A stretch of DNA of 38,801 bases, from contig PBTY01000097.1 in assembly GCA_002729235.1 (NCBI GenBank), forward strand, positions 1-38,801, in the 5' to 3' direction. Below are positions 14,704 through 38,000 of this stretch, one piece after another. A program made the translations under genes and the position numbers. A model generated the notes under the pieces. It saw nothing but the letters and a program-made list of their open reading frames with translations, was not told the DNA's origin and ran no database searches. Each line of letters begins with the position of its first letter. The stretch's first letter is position 1. Source of the DNA: Rickettsiales bacterium (GTDB taxonomy: Bacteria > Bacteroidota > Bacteroidia > Cytophagales > Cyclobacteriaceae).

Positions 14704-14708
14704 TCATA

Positions 14709-17531: not shown

Positions 17532-17562
17532 TAATCTCCTGTAGTGTGGTTATATTGACTGA

Positions 17563-20523
17563 ATGAATCCGCTCACCGCCAAACTAACTTTCATTTTCTT
17601 GCTAGTGCGTATAATTTCATATGCTAACGGGGAGAGTCACTTTACACTAGCTAGTTACAATTTCAATGATGGCAAATACGATAGCACCATCTGGCATTTA
17701 GATCAGCTAACACAGACAACATGGGAAACAGCATTTCTGAAGAGTCGTGCCTACATTGAACTAGGAGAATATCAAAAGTCCATACAATGGATCAATGAAG
17801 CTTTAACTACATATGATTCTGGAAAAATAGATTTTACTCTACTAAAAGCCAAGCTGTTCTTCCAAATGGGAGAGCCTCAACAGTCCATTGATTTGATTGA
17901 TTCATTGGGTGACTTGACAAATCGCGAACATAATGCGAGAGCTTTGAATATTAAAGCAAAGAGTTTGATTTGGGCTGGTTTTATTGATAAAGCAATTGGT
18001 TTTAATCATCAAGCATTTCTTATCGCAAGCTCTTTAGAGGTCAAAGATTATATCCTCTTAGGTGATATTGCCAATGTAGATGGGATTCTGGCCTATTTCA
18101 GAGGTGATTATGATCAGGCAATTGATAAGTTTGAAGAGGCTATTGATAATAAGCGGAAAATTTATTCGGATCAAAACCCTGAAGTGCTATCCCTTTTTGG
18201 AAACACAGGGGTTATGTATAAGAATAAACTTCAATACGATAAGGCGCTGGAGTATTACGGATATGAGCTCGAAAATTTAATACTTAAGTTGGGTGAAAAT
18301 CATCCAGATGTGGCCACATCTTATCAGAACATTGGAGGAGTACTTTTTGAAAAAGGTAGCTATGAGTTGGCTTTAAAAGCATTCAACAAAGCACTCGAAA
18401 TCAAAGTGGCTGTTTTAGGGGAAGGAAATACCAGAACACTGGATTTGCTAGAATGGATAGCCAATGTCCAGGCAAACATAGGACAGTATGATGAGGCCCT
18501 TTCTGGCTTTGAAAAGACCCTGGAGGGTCGTGTAGAAGAATTGGGATACAATAATCATTATGTGTTACTCACTGAGTACAACATAGGAGAAACTTATTTG
18601 AAACAAGCTAATTACAATGAGGCAATAAAGCATTTTTCATTTGCAAAGAAAATTGGTGAGGTTGTTTACGAGAGTAAAAATGCTGATCAGGCAACTAACT
18701 ATATTGGTATCGGTGAATCCTATAGGTTATTGGGGCAAATCGATTCTTCACGATGGTATTTCTATAAATCACTTGAGGAGATACTGCCTGATTTTGAGTG
18801 GCAAGGTGAGTTAAACCCTCCTACAATAGATGCATATCTGAGATTTGCTGAGGTTTCAATGGCTTTGATTGGTTTATCTAAGACTTTCAATACTATCCAT
18901 TCCAAACCATCGGATATAGAGCAAGGATTACATTTTATAAACACTGCGAGAATAGTTCTGGATAATCTAAGGCAGACATTTATCAACGAGTCTGATAGAA
19001 TTACATTTCAGAAGTATGGGAAAGATTTAGCAGATGCAGCACTAGAGTTAGTTTGGCGTAAATATGAATTAACAGGAGAAGGAATTGATGAGTTATTCAA
19101 ATGGACTGAATATTCCAAGAGTGTTGCGCTTTTAACAACAATGGTCGGGGAAAAAGCAAAACTTGAATCAGATATTCCAGATTCAATGCTGTTGTTAGAT
19201 TATAGATATCGAGTACAGCAAGACTCATTGAAGACTCTTTTGTTGGAGAATGACGTTTCTAGAATGGCCGATTTAAGAAATGAATTATTACGAATAAGTA
19301 ATGATCACCATGAATTAATAAACCAATTGGAACAGGATTATCCTGCTTATGCGGAGCAAAAATATGGGGTAGACCCAGTTGAGTTAACCAAATTGAAATC
19401 TAAGCTTAAAGGAGTCGATTTTGTTATTTATCACATCAGCAGCTCCAAAAACTTAATGATTCATTTTATTAACGACCACAATCATGTTGTTAAAAAAGAG
19501 GAAACACATGATGTTAATGGATTAATTTCCAATTTGAGAGAATCTATTATAGAGCAAAGCGATACGGGATATCAAGAGCTTTCATTTCAGCTTTCGAAGC
19601 TACTGATAGATCCAATAAAAGAATATTTGAATCCAGATAATCGACTGGTGATTGTCCCTGATGGGATACTCTCTTATGTCCCGTTTGATGCACTTCCATT
19701 TGAAGATGGGTATTTGTTTGAAAGCCATCGAATTAATTATGAGTTTTCTGCTACCATATTTTCAAATAGAATTACCAATCAGAAGAAAAGTGCACGGTTT
19801 ATTGCTTATGCTTCCAAATTTGAGAATAATGAAAGTAAGCTCGAGTTATTGAGGAGTGAGGATTTATATGACCTACCAGGGGCTCAGAGGGAGGCTCAAA
19901 TGTTGGCGGACCTAATGAATGGGACGTTGGTTGCTGGAGCCGAAGCTACTGAAAGTAGATTCAAGAAAGAGATGTCTTCATATGATATCATTCATTTGGC
20001 AACACATTCTATTGTTGCTCCATACAATCCCGATTATTCCAGATTATATCTTGGGAAAACAGAGGATGATGACGGATTGCTTCATGCTTATGAATTGGGA
20101 AATCTGAATCTATCAGCCAGTTTGGTTACGCTAAGTGCTTGTAATACTGGATTTGGTCAAATAGCTGAAGGTGAGGGGGTTATAAGTATTGCTCGTACTT
20201 TTAGTGCTGTTGGGGTGCCAAGCGTTGTAATGAGCCTTTGGCCGGCATCTGATAAATCCACTCCAGAATTGATGAAGTATTTTTATCAAAACCTGAAAGA
20301 TGGTAAATCAAAAGATGTAGCGCTCAACAATGCTAGAAAGCAATACCTATCCACAGCAAAAGGCAAAGCGAGACACCCATTTTACTGGGGAGGCTTTGTG
20401 TTGATCGGTGATGAGAGCCCTATTGTAAATAGGACTATTGGGAAGACGTATTGGTTGATATTAATAGTAATTCTTATTTTGGTAATTCCAATTGGTTTTA
20501 AGCTCTACAGAGAAATGATGTAG
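17563..20523 (+). CDS. Membrane-anchored TPR-CHAT protease-like protein 3
   Basis: A 986-residue third paralogue. Signal peptide (about 1-22); TPRs of the kinesin-light-chain-like type over about 25-400 (YDQAIDKFEEAIDNKRKIY, HPDVATSYQNIGGVLFEKG, YDEALSGFEKTLEGRVEEL); a linker with FKWTEYSKSVALLTTM; a CHAT domain from about 640; a transmembrane segment at about 963-980; and the tail KLYREMM. Catalytic His815 lies in IHLATHSIVAP and Cys860 in LSACNTGFGQIAEGEG. Its N-terminal two thirds differ strongly from copies 1 and 2, and the residues after the catalytic His are changed. The C-terminal CHAT cap is nonetheless nearly identical (4 differences in 67). It sits 31 bp after gene 2, and a TATATTG box lies five bases before the ATG. 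Different TPRs with one conserved catalytic cap suggest different inputs and a shared active-site architecture. Confidence 0.9.
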   Translation: MNPLTAKLTFIFLLVRIISYANGESHFTLASYNFNDGKYDSTIWHLDQLTQTTWETAFLKSRAYIELGEYQKSIQWINEALTTYDSGKIDFTLLKAKLFFQMGEPQQSIDLIDSLGDLTNREHNARALNIKAKSLIWAGFIDKAIGFNHQAFLIASSLEVKDYILLGDIANVDGILAYFRGDYDQAIDKFEEAIDNKRKIYSDQNPEVLSLFGNTGVMYKNKLQYDKALEYYGYELENLILKLGENHPDVATSYQNIGGVLFEKGSYELALKAFNKALEIKVAVLGEGNTRTLDLLEWIANVQANIGQYDEALSGFEKTLEGRVEELGYNNHYVLLTEYNIGETYLKQANYNEAIKHFSFAKKIGEVVYESKNADQATNYIGIGESYRLLGQIDSSRWYFYKSLEEILPDFEWQGELNPPTIDAYLRFAEVSMALIGLSKTFNTIHSKPSDIEQGLHFINTARIVLDNLRQTFINESDRITFQKYGKDLADAALELVWRKYELTGEGIDELFKWTEYSKSVALLTTMVGEKAKLESDIPDSMLLLDYRYRVQQDSLKTLLLENDVSRMADLRNELLRISNDHHELINQLEQDYPAYAEQKYGVDPVELTKLKSKLKGVDFVIYHISSSKNLMIHFINDHNHVVKKEETHDVNGLISNLRESIIEQSDTGYQELSFQLSKLLIDPIKEYLNPDNRLVIVPDGILSYVPFDALPFEDGYLFESHRINYEFSATIFSNRITNQKKSARFIAYASKFENNESKLELLRSEDLYDLPGAQREAQMLADLMNGTLVAGAEATESRFKKEMSSYDIIHLATHSIVAPYNPDYSRLYLGKTEDDDGLLHAYELGNLNLSASLVTLSACNTGFGQIAEGEGVISIARTFSAVGVPSVVMSLWPASDKSTPELMKYFYQNLKDGKSKDVALNNARKQYLSTAKGKARHPFYWGGFVLIGDESPIVNRTIGKTYWLILIVILILVIPIGFKLYREMM

Positions 20524-20807: not shown

Positions 20808-21518
20808 TTAGTCCAGTTCCTCTAGCAAATCCCCAGCCTCTTTTCGGTATTCATCCAGTTGTGCAAGTTCATCTAATAGCTGACGAGCTTTATCTGTTTT
20901 CTCCAGTTTGATATAAGCCAAAGCACTGTACCATAAACTAGCCTGGTAATAGGAATTGCCATCATTGGTTAGTTTTCCAAAATCTTCAAAGGCAGATTCC
21001 GGATTGTTAGTTTCCAGCCTCGTTATTCCTCGGAAAAAGTGGTACTCTGGTTGATCTGATTGACTGATCAACTCCGTGAACAAGTCGTTAGCCAGCTCAT
21101 ATGCTTTGCTGTCATAGGCGGCAAAGGCTTTGCTTTTTAGTGTCGCCTCATCTTCACCTCTTGTGGCGGTGTATTCATAGTTTGGATAAGCTGAATAATA
21201 CTCGCTGTAGAGATCCTTGTCGGACCAGGATTGATATCCAATAAAAGAAGCTATTACAATAGATGCTGCAATGCTCATTTTCCAGTAAGTGCTGAGCTGG
21301 ATGTGTTTGGTTGGTTTCTCCTCTGCTTCCCAATTACTAAAGGTAGATCGGATGGCCGCTCTTTCCTCTTCTCGAAATGCTGCAAGCTCCAATTTCATCT
21401 GGTCCGCCTGGTTCTTAAACGCACCATTTTCCTGATATTGTTGATTGAATTGCTCTATCTGCTCTGCAGTTGCAGATTCAGAATAAAAGGCCCTTATCAA
21501 TTCTTCATCACTCATCAT
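20808..21518 (-). CDS. Membrane-spanning TPR protein in anti-sigma position
   Basis: A 236-residue protein starting MMSDEELIRAFYSESATAEQ. It has an N-terminal cytoplasmic region of about 78 residues, one transmembrane helix at about 80-98 (STYWKMSIAASIVIASFIGY), and a periplasmic part with two or three TPR-like helices (YDSKAYELANDLFTELI, PESAFEDFGKLT, EKTDKARQLLDELAQL). This is the topology of single-span anti-sigma factors, and the gene overlaps the ECF sigma gene by 11 bases, the usual arrangement. The N-terminal region is not a zinc-binding ZAS domain: there is no HxxxCxxC. Anti-sigma function is therefore inferred from context. Two adjacent ATGs (21518, 21515) follow AAGGAGG; the second has the better spacing. 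Confidence 0.82.
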   Translation of the reverse strand: MMSDEELIRAFYSESATAEQIEQFNQQYQENGAFKNQADQMKLELAAFREEERAAIRSTFSNWEAEEKPTKHIQLSTYWKMSIAASIVIASFIGYQSWSDKDLYSEYYSAYPNYEYTATRGEDEATLKSKAFAAYDSKAYELANDLFTELISQSDQPEYHFFRGITRLETNNPESAFEDFGKLTNDGNSYYQASLWYSALAYIKLEKTDKARQLLDELAQLDEYRKEAGDLLEELD

Positions 21519-22131
21519 TACCTCCTTTCTTGTAGCTATTTCTTAGTTGCTCGATGCACCTGTTCTTTTGTGATTTCACTACACTGTCATTTTTGTATCC
21601 CAGCTTTTCAGCTATTTCTTTCATTGAAAGCAATTCATAGTAGAACAACTTGAGTATGGATTTACAGGGTTCCTTCAAGTCTTGAAGTGCATGCCGGATT
21701 TTTTGAATCAGTTGCTGCTCCTGACTTTCGAATGATTCTGTTTCTGCCAGAAACCGTAGATGCTCCATTACTGCAGCTTCATTATTGGATTGAGTAACGT
21801 TCTTTCGATACTTGGTACTCAATTGGTTTTTGGCAATCCCATACAAATAAGTTCTCAGACTACTGGATAGATTGACTCTACGCTGAAGTATGTTCTCGTA
21901 GAGGTACATCTGTGAAGATTGATAAAGATCATTGATCTCTTCCTGAGTGATACTTGAGTTGGACTTGCACCAATCATAAAACTGCTGCCTCTCACCCAGG
22001 TAAAACTCTTTAAATCCTTTATAATCTCCGTTCAGGAGTCCTGTTACTATAGCTTGGTCTTTATTGCTTGTCACAGTGTTAGTAGCCTTAATCTCTAAAG
22101 GTAAACTTACGCCAGTATAAAATTTTGACAA
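21508..22131 (-). CDS. ECF-type RNA polymerase sigma factor
   Basis: A 207-residue sigma-70 family protein with only regions 2 and 4, so of the ECF class. Region 2 is at about 27-112 (IVTGLLNGDYKGFKEFYLG, SQMYLYENILQR, LRTYLYGIAKNQLSTKYRK). Region 4 is at about 143-200 (IRHALQDLKEPCKSILKLFY, then the helix-turn-helix LLSMKEIAEKLGYKNDSVVK). The start is uncertain. The frame opens with TTG at 22131, directly after an in-frame stop, and the first ATG-like alternative is a GTG at 22074, which would leave a normal short N-terminus MTSNKDQAIVTG. It overlaps the downstream TPR gene by 11 bases and is divergent from the 2235-residue giant gene, whose start codon is 90 bp away. Confidence 0.9.
   Translation of the reverse strand: MSKFYTGVSLPLEIKATNTVTSNKDQAIVTGLLNGDYKGFKEFYLGERQQFYDWCKSNSSITQEEINDLYQSSQMYLYENILQRRVNLSSSLRTYLYGIAKNQLSTKYRKNVTQSNNEAAVMEHLRFLAETESFESQEQQLIQKIRHALQDLKEPCKSILKLFYYELLSMKEIAEKLGYKNDSVVKSQKNRCIEQLRNSYKKGGNDE
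21519..21526 (-). promoter_or_regulatory. Unusually strong Shine-Dalgarno inside the sigma gene end
   Basis: On the minus strand AAGGAGGT (bases 21526-21519) ends 1 base before the first and 4 bases before the second start codon of the TPR gene. It is encoded by the Lys-Gly-Gly codons near the end of the sigma factor, whose stop lies beyond the downstream start codons. The overlap suggests translational coupling that fixes the sigma to anti-sigma ratio. Most genes in this window show no such site. Confidence 0.75.
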
Positions 22132-22163: not shown

Positions 22164-22225
22164 TGTTTACCTTTTTTCATCATAGCTACTAAGGAGCAGT
22201 AACGCTCTAAAAATTTATGCTATGA
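22164..22225 (+). promoter_or_regulatory. Duplicated promoter/leader block, copy 1
   Basis: TGTTTACCTTTT at 22164-22175 is followed by a 47-base stretch (22180-22226) that recurs base for base before the next giant gene (29051-29097), with the same spacing. The block has TCATAGC (22180-22186) complementary to GCTATGA (22219-22225), which contains the start codon. Inside lies a second possible hairpin GGAGC/GCTCT (22193-22197 with 22204-22208). AAGGAG at 22191-22196 is 25 bases from the start codon, too far for an ordinary ribosome site. ATG-CTA-TGA at 22217-22225 forms a two-codon frame whose stop overlaps the real start. Two promoter readings are possible: TACCTTTT as a -7 box with transcription starting near 22181, or an ECF pair TGTTTACC and CTACTAAG. 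Confidence 0.65.
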
Positions 22226-25200
22226 AGTATTTTTTACTTTTATTAATCACAGTTTCAGGAAGTATTGCATTTGCTCAAAATGTAAACATTCCTGACGCAA
22301 ACATGAAGGCAGCTCTGGTAGCTGACACAGAAATTAACACCAATGCAGATTCAGAAATATCTGTAGCGGAGGCCGAAGCTTTTACTGGTACTGTGAATCT
22401 CTCCTACAAAAGTATCGCAGATCATACAGGTCTGGAGGCTTTCACCAACATTACCAGATTATTAATCGGAGGCAATGCATCGCTTACCTCTTTAGATGTA
22501 TCAGCCAATACCAGTTTGACTTACTTAAATACTGGTGTCTTACCAATTACTTCCATTGATCTCTCTGCAAATACCTCCATTGATACTTTGGTGATGCTCA
22601 GAAATGAACTAAGTACTTTGGATATAAGTGATTTAACAAACTTGATCTATCTGGATGTTCGCGACAACAATTTGACATCCATCGATGTGACGATTAACAC
22701 TGCTTTGAAGCAATTATATATTGATCAAAATGATATCACGACCTTTACTTTTCCTGAAAGCTTAAAGACTGACTTAATAGGTTTGGGCTATGGGGATAAT
22801 CCTTTGGCCAATGCATTTGATTTTACACAGTTTCCCAACCTGACCAGGCTGTATGTAGGTTCCAGTGACTTGACTTCATTGGATGTGTCTTCGTTGACTC
22901 AATTGGAATGGTTGATCTGTAATAATAATCCGATCACCACATTGGATGTTTCGCAAAATACAGCTTTAACATCATTAGTAGTTGGAGGTACCTCAATTAC
23001 TGATTTGGATTTGTCGCAGAATCCCAACCTTTCAAATGTGAATTTTTCCACCCCCATTTCGTATTTGCCAAGTAAAATTCAAACCATAAACCTGGCTAAT
23101 GGCAATAATGATAAAATAGAATATTTCTATTTGAGTAATAACTCTGATCTATCATGTATCAAAGTCGATGATTCCTCAAATCCTTTTCCAAATCTTCTGA
23201 ACTCCAACTTCGATGGGTTTTCCAATTTTGCAGAAGAGTGTATTTCGGGAAGCATCGTTTTTGTAGATCCGGTTTTTAAGCAGGCCTTATTGGACCATGA
23301 TCCAGTAATTGATACCAATGATGATGGCTACATTACTGAAGATGAAGCTGCTGCTTTAACAGGAACACTAAGTTTGAGACAAAAGGCTGTCAAGAACGTA
23401 AGTGGTATTGAGTTTTTCACCAACATTACCGGTCTTGATCTCTACGCTACTGAAGTAAGAAATCTTGATCTTTCTGGTAATACATCACTAAATGATCTTG
23501 ATCTTTCGTACATCACGGAGTTGACAATACTAAGTCTGGATAATGGAAATAATGAGGCCATCTCATCTATTACCTGGGCGGGTTCATATCCATTGAAGTG
23601 TATCACGGTGGATGATCCAACGTATTCTGAAACCAATTGGACCGGGATTCCTTCAGGGGTAGGGTTCAGTACGGATTGTGAGGTGACTGTTTCTTCTCAA
23701 TTCAAGACAGCTTTGATCAATGATGGTTATGACCTGAATGCTGATGGCGAAATCCAGGTGAGTGAAGCAGAAGCAGTCACTGGAGAATTGAATTACTATG
23801 CTAGTTACATTAGTTATGTAGGTGGTCTTGAGGCATTTGTAAATGTTTCTTCACTAAATTTTGGAGATGCTTCTCCTACTCTAGGATTGAATTCGATCGA
23901 TGTAACTCAAAATGCTCAATTGATAACCTTGAAACTGGCTAGTAGCAAGATTTCATCATTGGACCTGTCATGTAATTCTCGTTTGAAAGAACTCGATCTA
24001 ACATCTGTAACAAACACTAATTTTAAAACACTGGACCTTTCAAATAATCAATCATTAGTCACTCTAAGAACACCTGGGGCTCCATTTGAAGATATTGATT
24101 TGAGTCAATGTAAGCAGATACAAACTTTATATGTGAACAATAACAATCTCACAAGTTTGGATCTGAGAAATCACTCCCAATTGAAATACTTCCGTGCCGA
24201 TAATAATGAACTTACATACCTGAATTTAAAGAACGGCAATAATGACCTCATATATGGCCCGGGATTCAATATCAGCAATAATCCTGACTTGAGTTGCGTG
24301 ACCGTAGATGATGTGACTTATGCGGAGGCCAATTTTACCAATAAAGATGCCACAACAAGTTACGATCCTGATTGTGATAATTTCATTATTGATTTTCCCG
24401 ATACCAACTTAGAGAGTGCTTTGCTGACTTATGATCCCGTTATCGATTTGAATAGTGATGGGGACATTCGATTGGATGAAGCTGAAGCGTTTACGGGTGT
24501 GCTTGATGTTAGTAGTTTAGGTATTGCAGACGCAACTGGACTAATTTATTTCAGCAACCTAACAGGATTGGATATTAGCGATAACTCGCTGACCGACCTG
24601 GATATCAAAAATGGTAATAATGAGAATTTCACTCTATTTGATGCTACCGGTAATGTTGATCTGACTTGTATCAAAGTAGATAATCCGATCTATTCTGAAG
24701 CCAACTGGAGTAATGTGGAAGCTGGAGTAACCTTCTCAGCATATTGTGATCCTGATGAGATCATTTACATTCCAGATGCAGACTTGAAAAAGGTTTTATT
24801 GGACTACTTGCATGTTGATACCAGTGGAGATGATGAGGTGAGCTACAGCGAGGCTTTAACCTTTACAGGAAACCTTGATCTTGATCAGTTAAACATTCAT
24901 ATAGCTGATGTGACAGGTATTGAAGCCTTTGAAAACATTACAGGTTTTGAATCGGGTAATGGTAACACAATTAGTGAATTGGATTTGACTGGGTTCAGTG
25001 AGTTGACAAGTGTAAGGGTGGTTCAAAACATAGATGGGCCTCTTGGATCATTAGATCTAAGCCAGAATTTGTTGTTAGAGACTATATCCATAAGTCGAGT
25101 GGCGGTGCCTGATTTGGATCTCACACTATATCCGAATCTAGTGGATTTAGGTTGTAATACTTGTGAACTATCATCAGTAGATCTGAGTCAAAATACAGAG

Positions 25201-28200
25201 CTCACTCACTTGTCATTATCGTACAATCCACTAACTGCAATCGATTTGTCCAATAACACGCAATTGGTTAGCCTGAGTTTGTATGAAGATCCTATCACGG
25301 CGATAGATCTATCCATGTTGACAGGGCTTACAGATTTGTATCTGGCAGGTGAGTATACTTCAATGGATGTTTCTACTCTCGTTAACCTGGTGAACCTTGA
25401 GCTGGTTAATGTTCAATTTACGGAAATGGATCTTTCCAATAATATTCTTTTGGAGGATGTAAGAGTATATGCTGAAGAAGATGAGGAATCAGGAATGTTG
25501 ATAAGGTCTGCCCTGGAGGTGCTCACTTTTGGCGAGAATAGCCTAATCGAGTATATGGAGCTTGATGGAAATAGTTTGAGATCCATTGATCTCACCTTTA
25601 TGGCAAATGATAAATATCGTTATGTTTCCTTATATGACAACTTGCTTGAAGAGATCAATGTTGGACTAATTCAATCATTGACGTTAGATCAAAACCCGAA
25701 CCTTACTTGTGCGCAAACAACAGATGTAGCTTATGCTACTGCCAACTATAGTTATGATGAGGGATTGACCTTTGATGAGAATTGCTATAAGACTGGGACT
25801 GATATATTAACTTTTTCATTTACTGAGGAGGTGGCAGCTGCAAGTGTTGATGCTGAAACACATCAGATTGTTATCGAAGTAGTCGCAGGGACAGATATTT
25901 CTTCCTTGTCTCCTTCCATCACACTCTCTTCTGAGGCAAGTGTCTCTCCAAATAGTGGTGTTCTTCAGGATTTCACTTCTACAGTTGTCTATACAGTTAC
26001 TGCAGAAGATGGTGGTACCCAGGATTGGGAGGTTTTTGTGATAGAGCAGTTAGCAGATCCGACGGATATTGAGCTTTCCAGTACTTCAATAGATGAAAAT
26101 GGAAGTATCAATGATGTGGTAGGGACGCTTTCGGCAGTAGATCCAAGTTTTGATAATACGCACACATATGAGCTGGTAAGTGGCGAAGGGGACACTGATA
26201 ATGCATCCTTCACAATTTCAGGAGAGGAACTACTGGCTTTAGAGGTATTTGATTTTGAAACGAAAAGTTCCTATTCTATTCGAGTGAATGTGAATGATGG
26301 TGAATCAGGAGTATTTGCAAAGCAACTTAGTATTACCATCTCTGATGTTAATGATGCTCCTACTGATATTGCGCTATCTGCAAATACCATAGATGAAGGA
26401 GCTGAGCTAAGTACTTTGATTGGTTCTTTCAGTGTGACAGACGAAGATGCGGAAGACACGTTTACCTATGCCTTAGTGGAAGGTGAGCTAGACAATAGTT
26501 CGTTCACCATATCTGATGGTGAGTTGCTAAGCAATGAGGTTTTTGATTATGAAACAAAAACTGCTTACAACATCAGAGTAAGCGTGACGGATCAGGGTGG
26601 TGCTTCATTTGAAGAGACCTTTGATGTTTTTGTAAATGACGTGTCTTCTATCGTATCCACTTTTGCTTTGAGTGTGAGTGAAATTGAAGAAAATGAGGCT
26701 GTTGGTACGGCTGTAGGAGCTTTTACCACAGAAGGTACTGACCTATCGGGAACATTTAGCTATTCATTAATCGAAGGAGATGGTGACACGGATAATGCTT
26801 CATTCAACATTGATGGAACACAGTTGCTTTCTGCTGAGATATTCAATTTCGAGTCCAAAAGCAATTACACTATCCGAGTGCTAACTGATGACGGAAATGA
26901 GAATACATTAGAAAGAATATTTACGCTGACGATTGTTGATATCGCAGAAACACCAACTGCTATTGCATTAAGTAATTCATCCATTACTGAAAACAATAAG
27001 ATTGGAGCTGTTATTGGAGCACTATCCACTACAGATGAAGATGCTGATGATACCCACACCTATGCTTTGATCGAAGGTGATGGTAGTACAGACAATTCAA
27101 TGTTCGAAATTGATGGAGCTAGCTTGATAGCTAATACTTTGTTTGATTTTGAATCGAAGAATACGTTCGAAATTAGACTTTCAACTACGGATGCTACTAA
27201 CAATCAATTTGAGCAAAACTTCACTATTACTATATCTAATGAAAATGAAGGAGTAAGTATTGCCAATGCGATTGAAGATGTAAGTCGAGAGGAAGGGTTC
27301 TCAAGCTATGAAATTGATCTAAGTAATGTCTTTGAAGACGAGGATGGTGATGAGTTATCATTCACAGTTGTTAGTTCGGATCTAAACGTGGTGGAGGTAT
27401 CACTCAATGATGCCGGTACCAGCATTTTGATAACAGAGATTGGTTTAGGAACATCAGAGATAACCGTTACAGCATCAGATCCTTCAGGAGATTTCTCTGT
27501 CGATCAATCATTTAGTTTCGAGGTGACAGAGATTCCAAATACTGATCCTGTTGTTGCTGTTAGTCTATCGGATCAATCTCAAGAGGAGGGTTTTGGAATG
27601 CTACAGGTGGATTTATCTGGAGTGTTTACTGATGCTGATGGTGATGAGCTTACCTTATCCGCTACAAGCACTAATGATCAGGTGGTTACCGTCTCTATTG
27701 AATCTGGAAATCAGTTGGTTTTAACTGAAGTAGCCACTGGTACTGCAGAAGTTACTGTAACTGCCGATGATGGCAATGGAGGTTTGGTTTCAGATGCGTT
27801 TGCATTCAGTATTGTTGAGCAAGGAAATATTGTACCGGAGATTGTCAACCCAATAGCAGATCAAACTCAGGAAGAAGGTTTTGGTATCATGGAAATCAGT
27901 TTTGCCGGAGTATTCGAAGATGAAGATGGTGATCCACTCACCATATCGGCTAGTAGTGGAGATGTGAACGTGGTGAGCGTTGAAATTCTTGAAGGTGACA
28001 TACTTCAGTTAACGGAGGTGGGAGTTGGTACAAGCACCATTTCATTAACTGCAATTGATGGTAAAGGTGGCGCAGTGACAGATGAATTTATCTTTAGTGT
28101 ATCAAAGGCAGGTAATTCATCACCAGTAGTTGAAGCACCAATTGCGGATCAGGTGCAAGACGAAGGATTTGGCTTTGTGGAAATCAGCTATGCAGGTGTG

Positions 28201-28929
28201 TTTTCCGATGCTGACAATGACGCCCTTACCGTTCAGGTTAGTAGCAGCGAAACGAGTGTTGCCACTGTTGAATTGATTGCTGGTGACCTTATCAAAATAA
28301 CCGAAATAGGTACTGGATCGGCAATCATCACTTTGACTGCCACTGATGGCAATGGAGGAACAGTATCAGATGAATTTACATTGACTATCGTGCCTAACAG
28401 CGCCCCTACCGTAGTGTCAGCTTTAGATAACCTAACAATTGAGGAAGGTTTTGCAGAGGAAGAGATTGATATTTCTGGTGTTTTTGCTGATGCCGATGGA
28501 GAAGAACTATCATATAGTGTAAGCAGCAGCGACCAGAGCGTGGCTACAGTGAGTCTGGAAGGATCGATGCTCACAATCTCTGAGGTAGGATTAGGAGTTA
28601 CGCAAATTGAACTGGTGGCGACCGATCCTCGTGGAGCTAGCACTGCGGTTTCGTTTGAAGTGACCATTGAAGCAGCAGAAGTTGTTACACCTCTTGGGTC
28701 CATTTCTACAGAAGTTAAAATTTACCCAAATCCAGTTGTATCCTATGTGATAGTTTCTGGTACTGAGGATACTCATTTGCAACTAATTGATATCAAAGGA
28801 ACCATTCTGAAAGAGTCCAAGGGTGTTAGTCACCGATTGGATATGCAAGAGCTTCAGAAGGGCATCTATTTCATCAAACTTTACAATGGAAAAACAATAG
28901 TTCGTAAAAAGATCATTAAGATAAACTAA
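22222..28929 (+). CDS. Giant LRR/EF-hand/cadherin/Ig T9SS-secreted protein
   Basis: A 2235-residue secreted protein. Signal peptide 1-18 (ends IAFA before Q). Residues about 22-1190 hold five modules, each opening with PD.N.K.ALL and a calcium-type loop (for example DTNDDGYITEDE, DLNADGEIQVSE, DLNSDGDIRLDE). Each then has short leucine-rich repeats of the LTSLDVS.NT.L type and ends with two Cys around V-D-D...Y.E.N (for example CITVDDPTYSETNW ... STDC). Next come a DUF5018-like domain (about 1195-1275), four cadherin-like repeats of about 100 residues (1279-1674; DVNDAPTDIALS), and five Ig-like repeats with EEGFG...DLSGVF.DADGDELT (1678-2155). The T9SS type A sorting domain (about 2158-2235; KIYPNPVVSY, KGIYFIKLYNGKTIVRKKII) completes it. 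It is predicted to be exported by T9SS to the cell surface as a calcium-dependent adhesin or matrix protein. A terminator follows. Confidence 0.92.
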   Translation: MKYFLLLLITVSGSIAFAQNVNIPDANMKAALVADTEINTNADSEISVAEAEAFTGTVNLSYKSIADHTGLEAFTNITRLLIGGNASLTSLDVSANTSLTYLNTGVLPITSIDLSANTSIDTLVMLRNELSTLDISDLTNLIYLDVRDNNLTSIDVTINTALKQLYIDQNDITTFTFPESLKTDLIGLGYGDNPLANAFDFTQFPNLTRLYVGSSDLTSLDVSSLTQLEWLICNNNPITTLDVSQNTALTSLVVGGTSITDLDLSQNPNLSNVNFSTPISYLPSKIQTINLANGNNDKIEYFYLSNNSDLSCIKVDDSSNPFPNLLNSNFDGFSNFAEECISGSIVFVDPVFKQALLDHDPVIDTNDDGYITEDEAAALTGTLSLRQKAVKNVSGIEFFTNITGLDLYATEVRNLDLSGNTSLNDLDLSYITELTILSLDNGNNEAISSITWAGSYPLKCITVDDPTYSETNWTGIPSGVGFSTDCEVTVSSQFKTALINDGYDLNADGEIQVSEAEAVTGELNYYASYISYVGGLEAFVNVSSLNFGDASPTLGLNSIDVTQNAQLITLKLASSKISSLDLSCNSRLKELDLTSVTNTNFKTLDLSNNQSLVTLRTPGAPFEDIDLSQCKQIQTLYVNNNNLTSLDLRNHSQLKYFRADNNELTYLNLKNGNNDLIYGPGFNISNNPDLSCVTVDDVTYAEANFTNKDATTSYDPDCDNFIIDFPDTNLESALLTYDPVIDLNSDGDIRLDEAEAFTGVLDVSSLGIADATGLIYFSNLTGLDISDNSLTDLDIKNGNNENFTLFDATGNVDLTCIKVDNPIYSEANWSNVEAGVTFSAYCDPDEIIYIPDADLKKVLLDYLHVDTSGDDEVSYSEALTFTGNLDLDQLNIHIADVTGIEAFENITGFESGNGNTISELDLTGFSELTSVRVVQNIDGPLGSLDLSQNLLLETISISRVAVPDLDLTLYPNLVDLGCNTCELSSVDLSQNTELTHLSLSYNPLTAIDLSNNTQLVSLSLYEDPITAIDLSMLTGLTDLYLAGEYTSMDVSTLVNLVNLELVNVQFTEMDLSNNILLEDVRVYAEEDEESGMLIRSALEVLTFGENSLIEYMELDGNSLRSIDLTFMANDKYRYVSLYDNLLEEINVGLIQSLTLDQNPNLTCAQTTDVAYATANYSYDEGLTFDENCYKTGTDILTFSFTEEVAAASVDAETHQIVIEVVAGTDISSLSPSITLSSEASVSPNSGVLQDFTSTVVYTVTAEDGGTQDWEVFVIEQLADPTDIELSSTSIDENGSINDVVGTLSAVDPSFDNTHTYELVSGEGDTDNASFTISGEELLALEVFDFETKSSYSIRVNVNDGESGVFAKQLSITISDVNDAPTDIALSANTIDEGAELSTLIGSFSVTDEDAEDTFTYALVEGELDNSSFTISDGELLSNEVFDYETKTAYNIRVSVTDQGGASFEETFDVFVNDVSSIVSTFALSVSEIEENEAVGTAVGAFTTEGTDLSGTFSYSLIEGDGDTDNASFNIDGTQLLSAEIFNFESKSNYTIRVLTDDGNENTLERIFTLTIVDIAETPTAIALSNSSITENNKIGAVIGALSTTDEDADDTHTYALIEGDGSTDNSMFEIDGASLIANTLFDFESKNTFEIRLSTTDATNNQFEQNFTITISNENEGVSIANAIEDVSREEGFSSYEIDLSNVFEDEDGDELSFTVVSSDLNVVEVSLNDAGTSILITEIGLGTSEITVTASDPSGDFSVDQSFSFEVTEIPNTDPVVAVSLSDQSQEEGFGMLQVDLSGVFTDADGDELTLSATSTNDQVVTVSIESGNQLVLTEVATGTAEVTVTADDGNGGLVSDAFAFSIVEQGNIVPEIVNPIADQTQEEGFGIMEISFAGVFEDEDGDPLTISASSGDVNVVSVEILEGDILQLTEVGVGTSTISLTAIDGKGGAVTDEFIFSVSKAGNSSPVVEAPIADQVQDEGFGFVEISYAGVFSDADNDALTVQVSSSETSVATVELIAGDLIKITEIGTGSAIITLTATDGNGGTVSDEFTLTIVPNSAPTVVSALDNLTIEEGFAEEEIDISGVFADADGEELSYSVSSSDQSVATVSLEGSMLTISEVGLGVTQIELVATDPRGASTAVSFEVTIEAAEVVTPLGSISTEVKIYPNPVVSYVIVSGTEDTHLQLIDIKGTILKESKGVSHRLDMQELQKGIYFIKLYNGKTIVRKKIIKIN

Positions 28930-28935
28930 GGCGGT

Positions 28936-28959
28936 AATGACTATAACGTTCTAGTCATT
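28936..28959. repeat. 8-bp inverted repeat after giant gene 1
   Basis: AATGACTA and TAGTCATT flank an 8-base spacer, directly before the main terminator. It is probably a secondary 3' hairpin. A protein-binding site is possible but unsupported. Confidence 0.45.
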
Positions 28960-28963
28960 CCAT

Positions 28964-28992
28964 AAGCACTCCCCAGGTGGAGTGCTTTTTTT
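28964..28992 (+). terminator. Rho-independent terminator of giant gene 1
   Basis: The perfect 9-bp stem AAGCACTCC/GGAGTGCTT has a 6-base loop and runs into seven T. It should separate the two giant genes into independent transcripts, which makes the shared promoter/leader block before each of them more meaningful. Confidence 0.93.
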
Positions 28993-29034
28993 ATGCCCTG
29001 TTTTTAGAGCATAGGATAAAAAATCCTGGACAGG

Positions 29035-29096
29035 TGTTTACCTTTTCAATTCATAGCTACTAAGGAGCAGTAACGCTCTAAAAATTTATGCTATGA
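29035..29096 (+). promoter_or_regulatory. Duplicated promoter/leader block, copy 2
   Basis: TGTTTACCTTTT (29035-29046), four or five variable bases, and then the same 47-base block as copy 1 (29051-29097). It repeats the start-codon-pairing arms (29051-29057 with 29090-29096), the inner GGAGC/GCTCT hairpin and the ATG-CTA-TGA mini-frame (29088-29096). It lies 42 bases after the T-tract of the preceding terminator, so it should carry a promoter of its own. Sequence upstream of TGTTTACC is not conserved between the copies, which marks the left boundary of the shared element. Confidence 0.65.
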
Positions 29097-32000
29097 AATT
29101 TTACAAACCGCCGGGGATACATCAGGTTTCCCGTAAAACAATAACCTGGAGTCATCAATTGCTGATGCCTCTTTTTTGCTTAATACTCTTCTTGTTTCAC
29201 TCCGAATTGAGTGCACAGGCAATTAGTTCTACAAGCCAGGAGACTTCTGTAATAGAAGGATCTAACAATGTCTTGTATAATTTAAGTGCGAATAATGGTT
29301 CCATTGCAATGGCTGATAATGGCACTTATGTGGTGGCATTTCAGCAGAAAGAATCTGGTGGAAGTGACACTGAAATACTATTTGGTGTCTCTACCGTTGC
29401 AGGAGGCTACACCGAACAAGGTGTAGTGAATACTACCAAAACGTATAATCAAACTAAACCAAAGGTAGCTGTAAGTGCAGATGGGACAACATTTGCCATC
29501 GCCTGGCTTAGTCAAACGGCGGCTACATCAACCAGTGATGTATTCGTAAAAGTATATGGGGACGTGGATGGTCCTAGTTATTCAGGTAGTTCTGAGATTA
29601 AGCTTAATACCAATGCTATTAGCTCTGGGTTGATGAAAATTGCCATGGATGCCAATGGAGATTTTGTGGTGGTTTGGCATGATGATGTGGATGACAAGAT
29701 CTATGCCCAGCGTTTGAATTCTGCAGGAACCAAACAAGGTTCAGTGATTTCGGTGGATGATATATATGTCGGCACAATATATGCGTTAGACGTGGCCATG
29801 GATGCTGCTGGAGAGTTTGTGGTATCGTGGTACGATGCTCGACCAGAAGATACCAGCGGAGGACTTTTTGCCAAAAAGTTTAATGCAAATGGAACCGTTC
29901 AAAATGCTACATTTTTAGTCAATCATATTACCTCTGGTTATCAAAATGGAGGAAATGTGGGAATGGCCAACTCTGGTGAATTCATCATTTCTTATAATGA
30001 CGGTACAGATACTTATTTCAGAAAATATGAATCCAATGGAACGTCAATTGGATATGCTCAATTAACAGACCCAATTTCTTCATCTATTTACATTAGAGAC
30101 ATTGGTATAGACGCTAATTTGAACTATGTCTTAATGTTCAGCAACTCCAGTAACGGTATTTATACCAGGCGATTTGATTGGGATGATAATGATATGGGTA
30201 CAGCCACAACTGTCAGTTCAGGCGGTACTACTACCGAAATGGCAATCAATCGTGCAGATACTGAGTACTCCTCTTTTGTGAAGACCGTAAAGGCCACTGA
30301 TTCTCCCCTTCAATATCATATCAATGCTTATCGACATGAACTTTGTATTGACGATCCAGGGGTGATCACTGGTAGTGTAGAAGTATGCCCAGGGGAATCA
30401 TCTGTGACTTACTCTATTAGTGCAGTATCTGGAGCTTCTAATTATACCTGGACATTGACAGATGCCAGTATCGCTACTTTTACGGATGGGACTACTTCCA
30501 AAACAACGGGTAGTTCAGTTCAGGTGAATTATAATGGTGTTAATACCGGTACAGTCACTTTAGATGTGATTGCCAATGGAGGAACTGCTTGTGGCTCAAG
30601 TGCGAATAATTCTGAACTGAGTATTTCAAGTTCCAATATCAGCAACCCGGGAAGTATAACTGGACTAAGTTCGGTTATCGAAAATAGCTTAAAATCTTAT
30701 AGCATTACGGCAATTGATGGTGCTGCCAGCTATACCTGGTCTGTACCAACTGGGGCGACTATTGATACTGATAATGGAAACAGTATTATTGTTCAGTTCG
30801 GGTCTACTAGTGGAAACGTATCAGTATATGCAACTGACGATTGTGGAAATAATACTACCACGGTAAGCAAAGCAGTAACAGTTTCCGCAGCAGATACTAC
30901 TCCTCCACAAATTTTGTCATTATCCCCAGCACATGGCGAGGATGGAGTGGCTACGAGCACTGGTGTTTATACTATAAGATTGGATGAAACAGTAACTATC
31001 TCAAAGTCTGCAAGCAATATTTTGTTGAGAACTGGTACCAAATTGTCTGTGGTAACAGTAGCAACTGCGTCACCTTCAACAGACATAACTTACTCAAGCA
31101 AATTTGGACATTCTATCAATTTTGGTACCGTCTCATTAACTCCTGGAACTACTTACTTTATTGAAATTCCTAATAATGTTTTTGCTGATTCTCAGCTCAA
31201 CTTTTTCGAAGGGACAACCTCGTCGACCTGGAGCTTCACTGCAAATAGAGTTCCTACGAACATTGCTTTATCAGGTAGCACAGTTACCGATGGTGATGGG
31301 GCTAGTACGTATGTAGGAGATCTTAGTGCGACAGATGCAGATACCAACGAAAGTTTTACATTTAGTTTGGTTTCTGGTACAGGGAGTACCGATAACGCGA
31401 AGTTTTCAATATCAGGAAATGAATTATATACTGCCGCTGCTGTGGATTATGAAACACAGACTAGTTACAGCATCAGAGTTCGTGTAACAGATGGTGCTGG
31501 GTCCACTTTTGATAAAGTTTTGAGTATATCTGTTACTGATGTGGATGACACCCCTCCAACGCTTTTAAGCAGTGATCCAGGAGACACTGATACAGACGTT
31601 TCGCCATACACCAATATTGTTCTTGACTTTGATGAGAGCGTAAAAGTTCAGGATGGAACGAGCACTACCATCTTCTTAAAAACGGGGGGTGTTACTACCA
31701 AGTCGTGGACAATTAATCCAGTAACTGGCACATATCCTGTTGACGCTTCCTTTTCAGGAGGAACACTTACACTGGAGACAGGTGTTGATTTGGCGTTTGC
31801 GACAACCTACACTTTAGAAAGTTTCACTATTTCTGATTACGCTGGTAATACTTCCTCCACTGGCGCAATAAGCTTCACGACAAGAGCAGCAAGTGATGAA
31901 AATGATATTTTGGGTTTTGACATTGAAAACCTGGTCGTTGGTGATCCGGTGATTGATCCTGTAAATCATACGGTGGTAGCCACTGTAGAAGAAATTACAC

Positions 32001-35000
32001 CTAATGGAGTTCTTACAGAATTAGTAACATTCGACCTTTCAGATGGAGCTGTTCCATATGTTTTTTATAACAATACCTACAAGTTTTTCCCAAATGGTTC
32101 GAGTGCAGATGTAACCATTCGCTCAGAGAGCGGAGTGGATCAAGTCTGGTCTATTACATTAAATCATCAAACCCTGGATGGGACTTACTCGATTGGAGAC
32201 AATGGTGACTTTGCCACTCTTCAGAAGGGTTTCGATCAAATTGATTTTGTAGGGATTTCAGGGGATGTAACCCTGGAAATAGAAGATGGATATGATCAGG
32301 AGCAATTACTGGCACTAGCCAATCCAGATCCAACATACCAGTTGACCGTGCGTCCTCAAAGTGGAGCGACTGATGTGAAAATTCGAGTGCAAGATGCCTC
32401 ATCTCAAGCAGCTTTCGGTATCGGTCAAGATGTGGAAAATGTGGTAATCGATGGGGCTGATCCACTTACAGGAGATAAGGTTCTGAGTATTGTGATCGAT
32501 CAGTCAGATCATCGTGGGTTTACCATTAGCAATGCTGGTTCTGGAACTGTGGCTGATGTGACGGTACAGAATGTCATTTTTGACATTGTGACTGGTACAG
32601 CATTCTATAGTTCATCAGGATATTACAATATCACGGGTTTGACCGTTCAGAATTGTGAGTTTGTTGCTAATAATACCACGAGTACCTACGTTGGCGCATT
32701 TGATTTTAATAACAGTTATTACACGGATTGTAGTGTGATTAATAATGAAATCTACAATGCTCCAGGAACTCCTGATCCTAGTACTTTTTACGGAATTATG
32801 TCAGATGCCGCTGGTGCTACAGGTCTTAATAATGTGATCAATAATTCATTGGCAATGCGTGGTTCTACAGTTTATGGAATCAACAGGGCAGTAAACGTTC
32901 TTCACAATACGATTCACATTTATGGCGATAATGAGGGTGCAATTGCTTACGGTATTTATACCCCTCAGTTAGCACAGAATAACATTGTACAAATTTCTAG
33001 TTCCGCAACGACATATCGGTATGGTATCAATGGAATGAGCGCTGAAGATACAGGAAATAACATCTATATCTATGATGATGGTGTAAGCCCTTCATCTTAT
33101 GGAGGCTCTCCTAATATTACTCAGGAAGATGTGTTGGCACTTGAGCCATCTACCACATTTGAAGAAGTGTTTTTTACGGATGAGGCTACAGGTGATTTAT
33201 CCCTTTCAGGTACCTCAGCTTCCAGTAAATCCCTAAGAGTTACGCCTCTGGCAGGAGTTTTGGAAGATATTGAAGGGACAACTCGTAGTACTTTGGCAGC
33301 TAGCAAAGGAGCATACGAAAGTCCTAACAATATCACTGAAGTTTTGTCTTTTGTACTATCTGAGCAAACTGGTGATGCTACCATTGATGTTGGTGCGGGC
33401 ACCATAGCAATAGAAGTGGCTGCTTTGACAGATGTTTCCTCATTAACTCCTACAATCTCCATTTATACAGGAGCTTCCATTTCTCCAAATAGCGAGGTTA
33501 CCACAGATTTCACAAATCCTGTAGTGTATACCGTAACTGCCGAGGATGGGACTACTCAGGATTACACAGTCACTGTTACTGTAGCTCCAAACACAGAGGC
33601 CTTGATTACAAGCTGGACTCTGGAAGGCCAAATAGGTGATGCTGTGATCGATACAGATGCCTTTACTGTGGATGTTACAGTGAATGGTCTTGCTGGTAAA
33701 AGTCCATTTGGTGGAGTTCAGACATTCAAGTTTTATCCATCAATCGGATTAAGTCCAGGTGCTACAGTAAGTCCTTTAGGGACTAGTTTGATGTCAGCCG
33801 GACCTGGATCTTCCGTAACCTATACAGTAACCTCAGAAGATGGTCTAACGGAGAATAGTTGGGCGATTAGAGTACACTATGAACCCATTGAAGGAGGTAC
33901 GTATCAAGTGGGCGATGCTGGTGATTTTGAGAATTTAGCCACCGCGTTCCAGCGATTGAGTAATATCGGTGTATTGGGAGATGTCACATTAGAAATTTTG
34001 GAGAATCAAACATCCTATACTGCTCAATTGAATGAAAGTGAAGAATACTTAGGGCATACTTTGACGATCATGCCTGCAGATGGAGTTACTAACCTCATGA
34101 TGGGGCGTTCTACTTCTGCGCAATCAATATCCATCAATTGGCAAAAAATTATCATTGATGGAAAGAATGTGACTCGTATAGCTAACCCAGCTCAAGGGCA
34201 GACCATCTCATTGTCTAATTCAAATGCTGATGCAGGAGAGTTTGCAGTAATTAAGAACGTAGAATTAGAGGGTTATAATAGCTCTTCTATTGATAATACG
34301 ACCATTGAGAATTGTACATTCTTCATGGAAGATAATCTCAATTCTACGATCTATGCCTTTAGTTTGACAGGTGCCAATGCCTTGATTAGAAATAACAAGG
34401 TCTTTTTTGGAAGTGCAGTTGATAAATCTACTTTGAATATGTATGGTTTCTATACACTGTCAGGGGGTGAGGTTTACAACAACTTTATTCATTTGAGTCC
34501 AACGGCTGTCAGCTCTGCCAAAGGCATCGTTTACTCGGCTTTATATCCAGTTGCTATACATCACAATACGATTGTTATGGATGGGACGTCAACAGGTACT
34601 GAAACACTTATTGGAATAGAAGAAAGTAGTGCTGGTGGTGTTTCTGAAGATATTCACAACAATTTGATTTATATCTCACGAGATCCAGGTTTGTCCGGTT
34701 CTAAAACAGGTATGAAGTTGACAAGTAATTACCCTGCTAATATTGAGTACAACAATATTTATCTGGAGAATAATAGTGGATCACTGACTTATGTATATGA
34801 TGGAACTACTACCTACGACGGCACCAATTTTGGTACTCTTATGTCAATGACTGATGGTCTGACCAATAGTCAACCAGTATTCACTGATATAGCCAATGAT
34901 GACCTGACTTTGACAGGAGTATCCTTGGATGATACTGATATGCGAGGAACTCCAATCGCAGGTATTACCGAGGATTATTTTGGAACAAGTAGAAGTTTGT

Positions 35001-38000
35001 CATCCCCATCTAAGGGAGCTGATGAAACGCCAAACACTATTACGGAAATCTTATCACTGACGTTTGCAAGTCAAATTGGATCTTCCGTAATTGATCCGGA
35101 TGCTCATACAGTTACTGCGGAGCTAAGTGCTGCTGGAGACATTACTGCTGTATCACCAACGGTGGAAGTGTCAGCAGGTGCTTCTGTGAGTCCACTGTCT
35201 GGCCAGAGCCAAAATTTCAGTTCAGATGTTACCTATACTGTAACCTCAGAGGCAGGTAATACCCAGGACTGGATCGTCTCAATTGCCATAAATAGTGCAC
35301 CAACTGCACTTGACATTGATAACTCCTCAATAGCAGAGAATGCTGATTCGGGGACTTTAATTGGTGCTTTCTCGACCACTGATCCTGATGCTGGAGATAC
35401 GCATAGCTATTCGCTTGTTTCTGGAACTGGGGATACAGACAATGCATCTTTCACAATAGATGGTAACTCATTGATTTCGAACGAAGTGTTTGACTATGAA
35501 ACCAAGAGTTCTTATTCTATTTTGGTCAGAACGGATGATGGCAAAGAAGGAACACTTGATGTGCAATTTGACATTGCTATTACGGATGCATCAGACTTCC
35601 CTACCAATATCACCCTTGATAATGAGTCGATTGTTGAGAACAATGGAATTGATGATGTTGTAGGAGTATTTAGTACAACGGATCAAGATGCAGGTGATTC
35701 TCACACCTATTCTTTGGGGAATACACCATCATATCCAGACAACAACTACTTTGCAATTAGTGGGAATGAATTGCAGGCTAAGGTAGCATTTGACTTTGAA
35801 GTGAAGTCAACTTATTCCATCCAGGTTCAGACCACTGATGCGAGTGGTAAAGCATATCTAAAGAACTTTGTCATCTCGATTATCAATCAGTTTGAGGAAC
35901 CAACCAATATTTTCTTAAGTGCATCAACAGTTGATGAAAATAGTGGTGTTGATACTCCAGTTGGTACCTTCACTACAGAAGATCAGGATGCTGCTGAAGT
36001 TTATTCTTACGATTTTGCAACTGGTGAAGGTGATGCTGATAATGGATTATTTAGTATTTCTGGTGGTGAACTAAGAGTAGGTGAACTGTTTGATTTTGAG
36101 ACCAAATCGAGTTATTCAATTCTGGTTTCTACATCTGATGGTAATGGTGGGTCTTTTGTTAAGCAATTTGATATCACGATCAATGATGTCAGCGAAGCTC
36201 CAACAGATGTGGCCTTAGATAATTCGTCGATCAGTGAGAGTTTAGCGGCAGGAACAGTAGTAGGCACTTTGTCTAATACAGACGAGGATGCTGGTGAAGT
36301 TTACTCATACACTTTGGTGACTGGCACAGGCGATACGGATAATAACTCTTTTGAGATCGTTGGTGATGAATTACGTTCTGCTGAAATTTTTGATTTTGAA
36401 ACCAAGAATAGTTACTCTGTGCGAATTCAGGTGTCTGATGGAAATGGTGGACTTCATGCTGAGCCATTTACGATCAGCATTACAGACGTACCTGCATCTA
36501 TTACTGATATTGGATTGACTGGTTCTAATGTAAATGAAAACGAGTCTTCTGGAACTGTGGTTGGAACTTTGTCCACCATCGGAGAAGAAATAACAGGTGC
36601 TTATAGCTACGCCTTGGTTACAGGCGATGGTACCAATGATGCAGACAATGGATCATTTGCCATCGTAGATGAAGAATTGCGCACTTCTGCAGTGTTTGAT
36701 TTCGAAACTAAGTCATCTTTCAATATCTACTTACAGACTGATGATGGAGCTGGAGGCACGTTTGAAAAGGCTGTGGTGATCTCAGTTAATGACATTACCG
36801 AAGCACCAACTGATATCGATTTAGATGAAACTTCTATTGCCGAAAATAACAGTGTTGACTCGGTAATCGGGGTATTCACTGCCACAGATGAAGATGCCGG
36901 CGAATCGTACACGTTCACGCTTGAGGACGATGCTACGTATCCAGACAATACCTCGTTTGAGATTGTAGATGGAGAGCTTCTTGCTAGTGAAATGTTTGAC
37001 TATGAAACGCAAAATTCATACACGATCAATGTGCAGGTGAGTGATGGAAGTTTCACATACTCTGAGGAATTCACCATTACTATTACCGACGATACCGATG
37101 AATCATTAATTTGGACAGGTACAGTTTGGATTAATGGTACTCCTGGTGCAGGTTCTGATGATGTGATCATCGACGGAGACTACAATACGGCAGACGATGG
37201 TTTACTTGAAGTAAATAGTTTAGTGATCAACTCAGGAAAGACCTTGACCGTAGCTCCAGATAACTACCTGTATGTGGTGGGAGACATCACCAACAATGGT
37301 TCACTAGTAGTAGAATCAGGTGCTGACCTGATGACACATGAAGTTGGTGATTTCACTGGAAATGATGTGATCATCAAGCGAAATACACGCTATGCCGATG
37401 GCAAGTACAGCTTTGTGGGAACACCAATGCAGCAGACAACTAATGTGACCAACAGCACAATTGGGTCTCATGTGTACACTTATGATGAAAGCCAGGCGTA
37501 CGATCCAAATGATGGAGCAGATAGATGGATAGCCATGAGTGGGGAGTTGGTACCTGGTGTAGGATATACTCAGGCCATGCAGCAGGAGATCATCTTTACC
37601 GGTTTGCCGAATGTAACCACAGTCAATGTGAACGGTACTTATACCGGAACCTACGATGATGGTATCAACGAAGAGAATGAAGGATGGGTATTCGTTTCCA
37701 ATCCATACGCAACGGCCATTGAAGTGGGAGACTTCCTCGCTCAGACCAATATTGAAGGAGCTGTGTACATCTGGGATGACAATGGTTCGGACAATGGTCG
37801 TGGTACTAACTCTGATTACGTCATTGCAAATGGTACGGTCGCTACCAATACTACTGCGGCAGGAGGTCAGGATAGGTACGAGGGTTATCTAGGTTCAGCT
37901 CAAGGGTTCTTCGTCAAACTCGCAGATGACGTGGATACTGAAATCACTTTCACACCAGGTATGCGTGTAGCGGGTAATAATGCTGATGACAACTTCTTCC

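Follow-up and report, generated by a model that had tools for sequence, protein, structure and literature searches.

A repeated block before two giant surface-protein genes is most likely a control region shared with a neighboring sigma factor gene and joined to a conserved gene-start sequence

Autoregulated operons for extracytoplasmic function (ECF) sigma and anti-sigma factors carry a dedicated promoter that precedes both the operon itself and its targets. Here we describe a 38,801-base stretch of DNA (contig PBTY01000097.1 of assembly GCA_002729235.1, family Cyclobacteriaceae; referred to as the window) in which a 47-base block is repeated exactly before two genes encoding giant proteins, the first of which lies back to back with an ECF sigma operon. 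The block is most likely a control region common to the two giant surface-protein genes and the neighboring sigma gene, joined to a conserved gene-start sequence. More specifically, comparison of the sequences makes it probable that the block is the downstream half of the promoter of the neighboring ECF sigma factor, fused to a 5′ leader specific to the gene family.

The locus resembles autoregulated ECF operons in its ECF sigma factor (TIGR02937), the adjacent partner gene, the same promoter at the operon and at the targets, and ECF-like promoter spacing. It differs from them in its GTTTACC and ACTAA boxes, in a partner that matches no anti-sigma model, in its CHAT-TPR neighbors (CHAT is a relative of the caspases), and in having giant targets next door. 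Three other systems, compared here as far as the cited parts of each source describe them, share single traits with the locus. In Porphyromonas gingivalis, SigP/PorXY also ties an ECF sigma factor to type IX secretion in the Bacteroidota, but there the targets are secretion-machine genes under a two-component system, whereas here they are local genes for large secreted proteins (PMC4800418). The SM6 promoters of Flavobacterium psychrophilum probably form an ECF class, with a sigma/anti-sigma pair and genes of the type IX secretion system (T9SS) among its members, whereas the box found here is ACTAA (PMC9723704). Neighborhoods predicted from sequence likewise place an ECF sigma factor and a TPR protein beside a caspase-domain protein, but they are built on EACC2/TRADD-N proteins, and the cited parts of that source do not mention giant surface-type targets (PMC8195603). 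The features on which our comparison depends are listed below.

22180 to 22226, + strand: copy 1 of the 47-base identical block, containing the end of the promoter spacer, the −10 box, the leader, and the first five bases of the gene
29051 to 29097, + strand: copy 2 of the block, equal to copy 1 base for base
22165 to 22192, + strand: putative promoter of giant gene 1, GTTTACCTTT-N10-GCTACTAA, proposed −35 at 22165 to 22174 and −10 at 22185 to 22192
29036 to 29063, + strand: putative promoter of giant gene 2, same element, proposed −35 at 29036 to 29045 and −10 at 29056 to 29063
22079 to 22106, − strand: putative promoter of the sigma operon, exact match to the same element
22200 to 22221, + strand: leader TAACGCTCTAAAAATTTATGCT before the start codon, copy 1, from alignments and a model search, with most positions common to giant genes of congeners
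29071 to 29092, + strand: leader, copy 2, from alignments and a model search
22222 to 28929, + strand: giant gene 1, 2235 amino acids, LRR and cadherin-type repeats (Pfam) and a T9SS type A sorting domain (TIGR04183)
29093 to 38641, + strand: giant gene 2, 3182 amino acids, cadherin, PKD-like, and Ig-like repeats (Pfam)
21508 to 22131, − strand: ECF sigma factor, open reading frame of 207 amino acids (TIGR02937, sigma70-ECF)

The identity of the two blocks, reported by a first-pass annotation of the window, was confirmed base for base, as was the divergence of the genes from their sixth base (starts at 22222 and 29093, with ATGAA in common). TGTTTACCTTTT begins 16 bases upstream of each block (22164 and 29035) and occurs three times genome-wide, one of these sites lacking the block. 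When up to three mismatches were tolerated, a 44-base core of the block had two matches in the window and none in 100 shuffles. Our search of the whole genome (6,553,609 bases in 116 contigs) recovered only two full copies, which rules out a mobile or widespread repeat; the 12 other matches listed for a 63-base element were pieces of 14 to 23 bases with E values of 0.36 or worse, and an exact 19-base pattern taken from the block had no match in the contig search. The expectation that the block would precede other large T9SS-cargo genes was not borne out, as the genome holds no further copy and relatives share the leader only.

The exact element GTTTACCTTT-N10-GCTACTAA occurs at three sites in the genome, all within the window, namely, before the sigma operon, giant gene 1, and giant gene 2. 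The strand leading into the sigma operon reads GTTTACCTTTAGAGATTAAGGCTACTAA, with the same two boxes and the same 10-base gap as at the giant genes, and this copy equals that of giant gene 1 at 18 of 18 positions, a match reached by none of 60 shuffles. The operon thus itself carries the putative target promoter, as expected of an autoregulated ECF system, and the GTTTACC-N16-ACTAA spacing is that of classical ECF promoters. The sigma factor itself scores 59.1 bits against TIGR02937 (cut-off, 42.9), with the model spanning residues 41 to 198, and Pfam finds region 4 only (1.5e-5); it is a short protein without the extra regions of primary sigma factors. If the promoter is correctly placed, the true start of the sigma gene is probably the GTG at 22074 (VTSNKDQ...), within the listed reading frame.

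To place the element in a wider context, we searched 295 genomes of the family for sigma orthologs, scoring at most 10 candidates per genome (handles beginning with G denote genomes and those beginning with L denote loci). On this basis the closest orthologs were in Reichenbachiella faecimaris DSM 26133 (G178; 50%) and G137 (49%), and the five congeners had no sigma match at E ≤ 1e-20 among the ten candidates scored in each. Eight sigma loci were read in detail (our own and those of R. faecimaris, G137, G085, G015, G027, G010, and G274). All eight sigma proteins exceed the ECF model cut-off, the seven others with scores of 44.0 to 60.6; Pfam reports nothing for the R. faecimaris protein at E ≤ 1e-5. 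At every one of these loci a partner gene of 229 to 255 codons follows the sigma gene, and on the other side of the sigma gene a divergent gene of 416 to 2947 codons encodes a product that, judged by its start, appears to be secreted or of surface type. A CHAT-TPR gene is close by at six of the eight loci (own, R. faecimaris, G085, G027, G010, and G274), PF12770 being found in L125, L128, L130, L133, and L134, near five of the seven other sigma genes; none was seen in G137 and G015 within the stretches fetched. In the intergenic stretches of these loci, boxes resembling GT(T/A)TACC and ACTAA face both ways. The occurrence of the element at both giant genes, at the sigma operon, and at sigma loci of other genera supports the first-pass proposal of an ECF promoter, and in particular the first of its two forms, in which TGTTTACC serves as −35 and CTACTAAG as −10 for the neighboring sigma factor.

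The pairing of boxes was also assessed in 25 of 30 sigma loci (all but L103, L105, L111, L114, and L117; our own and the G015 stretches were cut by hand) by comparing the best outward-facing pair of 10-N10-8 words with that in 60 dinucleotide shuffles, a word format chosen after the motif had been seen. Twelve regions reached a level of at most 1 in 60, eleven of them through this motif and L101 through another word with a T run.

The leader part of the block, ACGCTCTAAAAATTTATGCTATGAA, has a distribution of its own. The 3′ half of the block precedes related giant genes in three congeners (two genes in G004, two in G002, and one in G001), and a model search found no leader match in G003 and G005. 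When the two own gene starts were aligned with the five of congeners, 23 of 84 columns were invariant, 20 of them lying within the segment that runs from leader to start codon. Upstream of the leader, the congeners differ from our genome and carry paired CTACCC/GGGTAG palindromes; counted by eye, the five congener starts and one from G125, which belongs to another genus, have a pair of CTACCCNNNNGGGTAG-type palindromes with a spacing of 24 bases, followed after exactly 25 bases by TTTCAC or CTTCAC. Genes for proteins that combine TPR repeats with a C-terminal LuxR-type DNA-binding domain adjoin the giant genes in G002, G004, and G125 (in G001 the regulators found are on another contig), and PF00196 together with TPR was present in all six proteins scanned, two from each of G002, G004, and G125. 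The best regulator match in our genome had an E value of 2.9e-29 at 25% identity, compared with 7.8e-86 in G002, 5.1e-70 in G003, 1.4e-44 in G001, and 3.8e-37 in G005, and a search for the LuxR-type double box found none in our genome. Across the 295 genomes this search returned 21 sites in 16 genomes against 16 for the reversed control, hardly an excess, and although 16 of the 21 were perfect matches, the pattern had been derived from six of these same sites.

The giant proteins themselves are closely related across this divide. Over its last 512 residues, giant protein 2 is 75 to 77% identical to giant proteins encoded downstream of the LuxR-type region in G001, G002, and G004, and giant protein 1 is 33% identical to the first part of a second G002 protein over 1258 residues. 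Closely related genes therefore carry differing promoter regions and a nearly identical leader. Retention under another promoter type agrees with the first-pass view of the leader as conserved. That annotation had treated the element as a single unit of about 62 bases; the repeat is real, and what is conserved is better described as two pieces, a promoter (about 22165 to 22192) and a leader (about 22200 to 22226). Because no sigma match at E ≤ 1e-20 was found in the congeners among the candidates scored, a gain of the sigma factor in this lineage would be the simpler view.

Several further stretches resemble parts of these regions. L167 and L118 (G273:C170), like L168 and L109 (G251:C532), place a TPR-type gene with a double palindrome about 4 kb from an ECF sigma gene on the same contig; these genes were assigned by resemblance to TPR-LuxR genes, and both kinds of regulator may therefore occur at one locus in G273 and G251. 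Two genes of G125, one of LuxR type and one adjacent to an ECF sigma factor (L040 and L112), share AAACCTTTATGCCATGAAAA at their starts. In L179 (G256:C2:4298387), ATGAAATAG comes after a perfect double palindrome and immediately behind a ten-base inverted repeat; a long frame begins only further on. In our own genome a weak leader-like stretch, AACGCTCAAACTTATGCTATGAAG, starts another reading frame (L010; G000:C46:29587). The short start motif TTTATGCYATGAA was considered as a general gene-start signal and set aside, because its 65 matches, spread over 37 of 59 genomes, exceed the 34 of the reversed motif only weakly, even with the giant genes counted in.

Next to the start codon, the LuxR-type relatives have a stem in which one arm is AGCATAA or GGCATAAA and the other is TTTATGCT or TTTATGCC. 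We compared the best stem ending at the start codon with shuffles of the 50 upstream bases, a test devised after hairpins had been seen by eye in the same genes. The P value was ≤0.05 in 11 of 16 LuxR-type genes (combined P = 4e-11) versus 6 of 110 control genes (out of 131 available), and with one gene per genus (nine genera, the first listed of each) the combined P value was 1.6e-6; these combined values overstate independence, as some genes have common ancestry. L175 and L180 (no long frame at the site) and L179 (a two-codon frame) were left out, and L167 and L168 were set apart as a class of their own with no hairpin seen (P = 0.35 and 0.32). The stems differ in sequence, as with GCGAGAA/TTCTCGC in G087 and TTCATGGCAATT/AATTGTCATGAA in G132. 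Among the six closest LuxR-type leaders, one pair had changed on both sides and 256 of 500 shuffles reached every measure of covariation, so that support for the hairpin comes from the shuffle test over unlike stems. Rfam gave no match above the gathering score in the window; around copy 2 there were four matches far below it (E values of 1.8 to 9.7).

The ends of the block also form an inverted repeat, TCATAGC/GCTATGA, a point absent from the first-pass annotation. A further observation at the gene starts is that ATG CTA TGA (22217 to 22225 and 29088 to 29096, and also in congeners) overlaps the start codon and is a possible two-codon reading frame ending in ATGA; given that an ATG at −5 occurs in 13 of 131 control genes, such an overlapping AUG-NNN-UGA frame is of little weight. 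In Flavobacterium johnsoniae, according to the cited parts of PMC6847099, translation is higher where the structure around the start codon is weaker, and few AUGs occur immediately before start codons. Against these trends a conserved hairpin with an extra ATG at −5 would be unusual, although less so in view of the control genes just mentioned. We tentatively suggest, with more doubt than confidence, that the giant-gene leader hairpin has been selected for pairing rather than for sequence and has remained with these genes while their transcriptional switch alternated between two types, a TPR-LuxR activator and a dedicated ECF sigma factor; it would form a post-transcriptional layer independent of the promoter. 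A literature search found no title on this promoter or on such a switch.

Taken as a model, the partner protein would release the sigma factor, which would then transcribe its own operon and both giant genes together. Transcription would begin some 6 to 8 bases past ACTAA, near AGCAGTAAC, so that the mRNA would begin almost with the conserved leader. Less surely, the leader would act post-transcriptionally, with a small hairpin that abuts or includes the start codon tuning translation or shielding the 5′ end of a 7- to 10-kb mRNA. The first step of this model rests on the distribution of the element, and the leader step is one that we infer.

Several results weigh against this model. In the shuffle test of paired boxes, 13 of the 25 regions missed the 1-in-60 level (L096, L097, L104, L106, L107, L108, L115, L120 to L124, and G015), including five in which boxes are seen by eye (L096, 2/60; G015, 4/60; L097, 6/60; L104, 12/60; L108, 16/60); L122 and L123 perhaps failed because the tested stretch was cut. 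Allowing two to three mismatches added six sites in our genome, for a total of nine versus 16 for the reversed control, which makes the six uninformative. Over the 295 genomes, the looser form GTWTACCTTT-N13-ACTAA gave 22 sites, distributed over 17 genomes, whereas the reversed control gave about 49. Five of the 22 are at sigma loci (three our own, two in G085); the other 17, in 15 genomes, are off the listed sigma places, and 14 of these, like the two G085 sites, fall in a stop-free frame of at least 132 codons. The looser form is not in excess and is therefore background outside sigma loci, and support for the ECF reading comes from the placement of sites, not from their number in the family. 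Neither our partner protein nor that of R. faecimaris matched an anti-sigma model in Pfam or NCBIfam. The hairpin test was hardly above chance in 14 ECF-type genes of our choosing (combined P = 0.037; L105, L108, L110, L119, L122, and L123 omitted), where P was ≤0.05 in three genes, namely, our own copies (0.035 and 0.007) and G137 (0.035), and >0.05 in the other 11. If the proposed start site is right, the 5′ arm of our own copies, TCATAGC, would be untranscribed.

That start site is the weakest point of, and the main doubt about, the ECF promoter reading. Four orthologs have an apparent sigma start codon that overlaps the ACTAA-like box, namely, those of R. faecimaris (ATTAATG), G137 (ATCAATG), G085 (ACTAATG), and G027 (ACTAATG), so that either the real start codon is further on or transcription begins upstream of the box; a GTG 3 to 4 bases after the box, as in our own sigma gene and a second group of orthologs, would fit a leaderless message. 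Because of this overlap, we retained a rather unlikely alternative, also raised in the first-pass annotation, in which TACCTTTT is a core, −7-like box. The transcript would begin close to 22180, immediately before TCATAGC; it would contain the block in full, whose ends would pair (UCAUAGC/GCUAUGA) and hide the start codon, and the conserved ACTAA would be part of the RNA or a binding site. This would account for the four overlapping start codons and is in line with the 7 to 8 bases over which the block ends pair (P = 0.035 and 0.007) and with the frequency of hairpins abutting or including the start codon in LuxR-type relatives. Folding of 81 bases, however, gave −14.6 kcal/mol for copy 1, equaled by 28 of 200 shuffles, and −16.6 kcal/mol for copy 2, equaled by 4 of 200, so that only copy 2 stands out; moreover, no conserved −35 candidate was seen further upstream, TACCTTTT lacks the final G of TAnnTTTG (a consensus taken from the cited parts of PMC9723704), and the distance between the two boxes suits an ECF promoter.

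The remaining alternatives concern what binds the element and why the block is identical. A reading of the bipartite element as an operator for some other DNA-binding regulator, and not as the promoter of the sigma factor, is quite improbable: our analysis would not tell RNA polymerase bearing the sigma factor from another protein, but the element recurs at sigma loci across genera, facing both the sigma operon and its divergent neighbor. That the identity reflects recent copying only, by gene conversion or cassette duplication of a promoter-leader piece whose nonbox bases are under no special constraint, is unlikely. All 47 bases are identical and the edges are abrupt, whereas the two leaders within G004 and within G002 differ; yet the 3′ half of the leader is retained across species and under two promoter types, and recent copying is compatible with function, so that neither rules out the other. 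Hardly credible is a recombination site for switching or shuffling giant genes, which the two direct copies spaced 6871 bases apart and the small inverted repeat at the block ends might suggest; none of 13 window proteins scanned with Pfam matched a recombinase (a search that did not extend to the rest of the genome), and the repeat holds a promoter that is also present, minus the rest of the block, before the sigma operon.

The giant proteins and the remaining neighbors complete the comparison of the sigma locus. The C-terminal sorting domain of giant protein 1 scores 44.6 bits against TIGR04183 (cut-off, 23), as expected of T9SS cargo, and no sorting domain was detected in giant protein 2 by Pfam (E ≤ 1e-3) or NCBIfam (E ≤ 1e-5); of the two genes that the first-pass annotation implied to be T9SS cargo, the first alone thus has a detected sorting domain. 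The two genes had been called unrelated, which is not so: their starts differ, but cadherin-type repeats are found in both (Pfam), and the repeat regions are 43% identical over 484 residues. Overall, the earlier interpretation is partly supported. Upstream lie the following genes.

20808 to 21518, − strand: candidate anti-sigma factor, from operon position, one hydrophobic stretch, and a weak C-terminal TPR match
11643 to 20523, + strand: three CHAT-TPR genes beside the sigma operon, with PF12770 in all three

The partner gene overlaps the sigma gene in the same orientation and its TPR match is weak; an anti-sigma role is possible, judging from its position in the operon. The tandem CHAT-TPR genes are almost alike over some 60 residues toward the end of their CHAT domains and differ elsewhere, as if by gene conversion.

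This locus offers a compact, testable case of regulatory rewiring, in which related giant surface-protein genes of one genus are paired with two kinds of dedicated local regulator and the leader is retained. It predicts target sites for a group of ECF sigma factors encoded beside CHAT-TPR genes and genes for large secreted proteins. It also directs attention to a hairpin at the start codon, in a phylum that, according to the cited parts of PMC6847099, has mRNAs without Shine-Dalgarno sequences.

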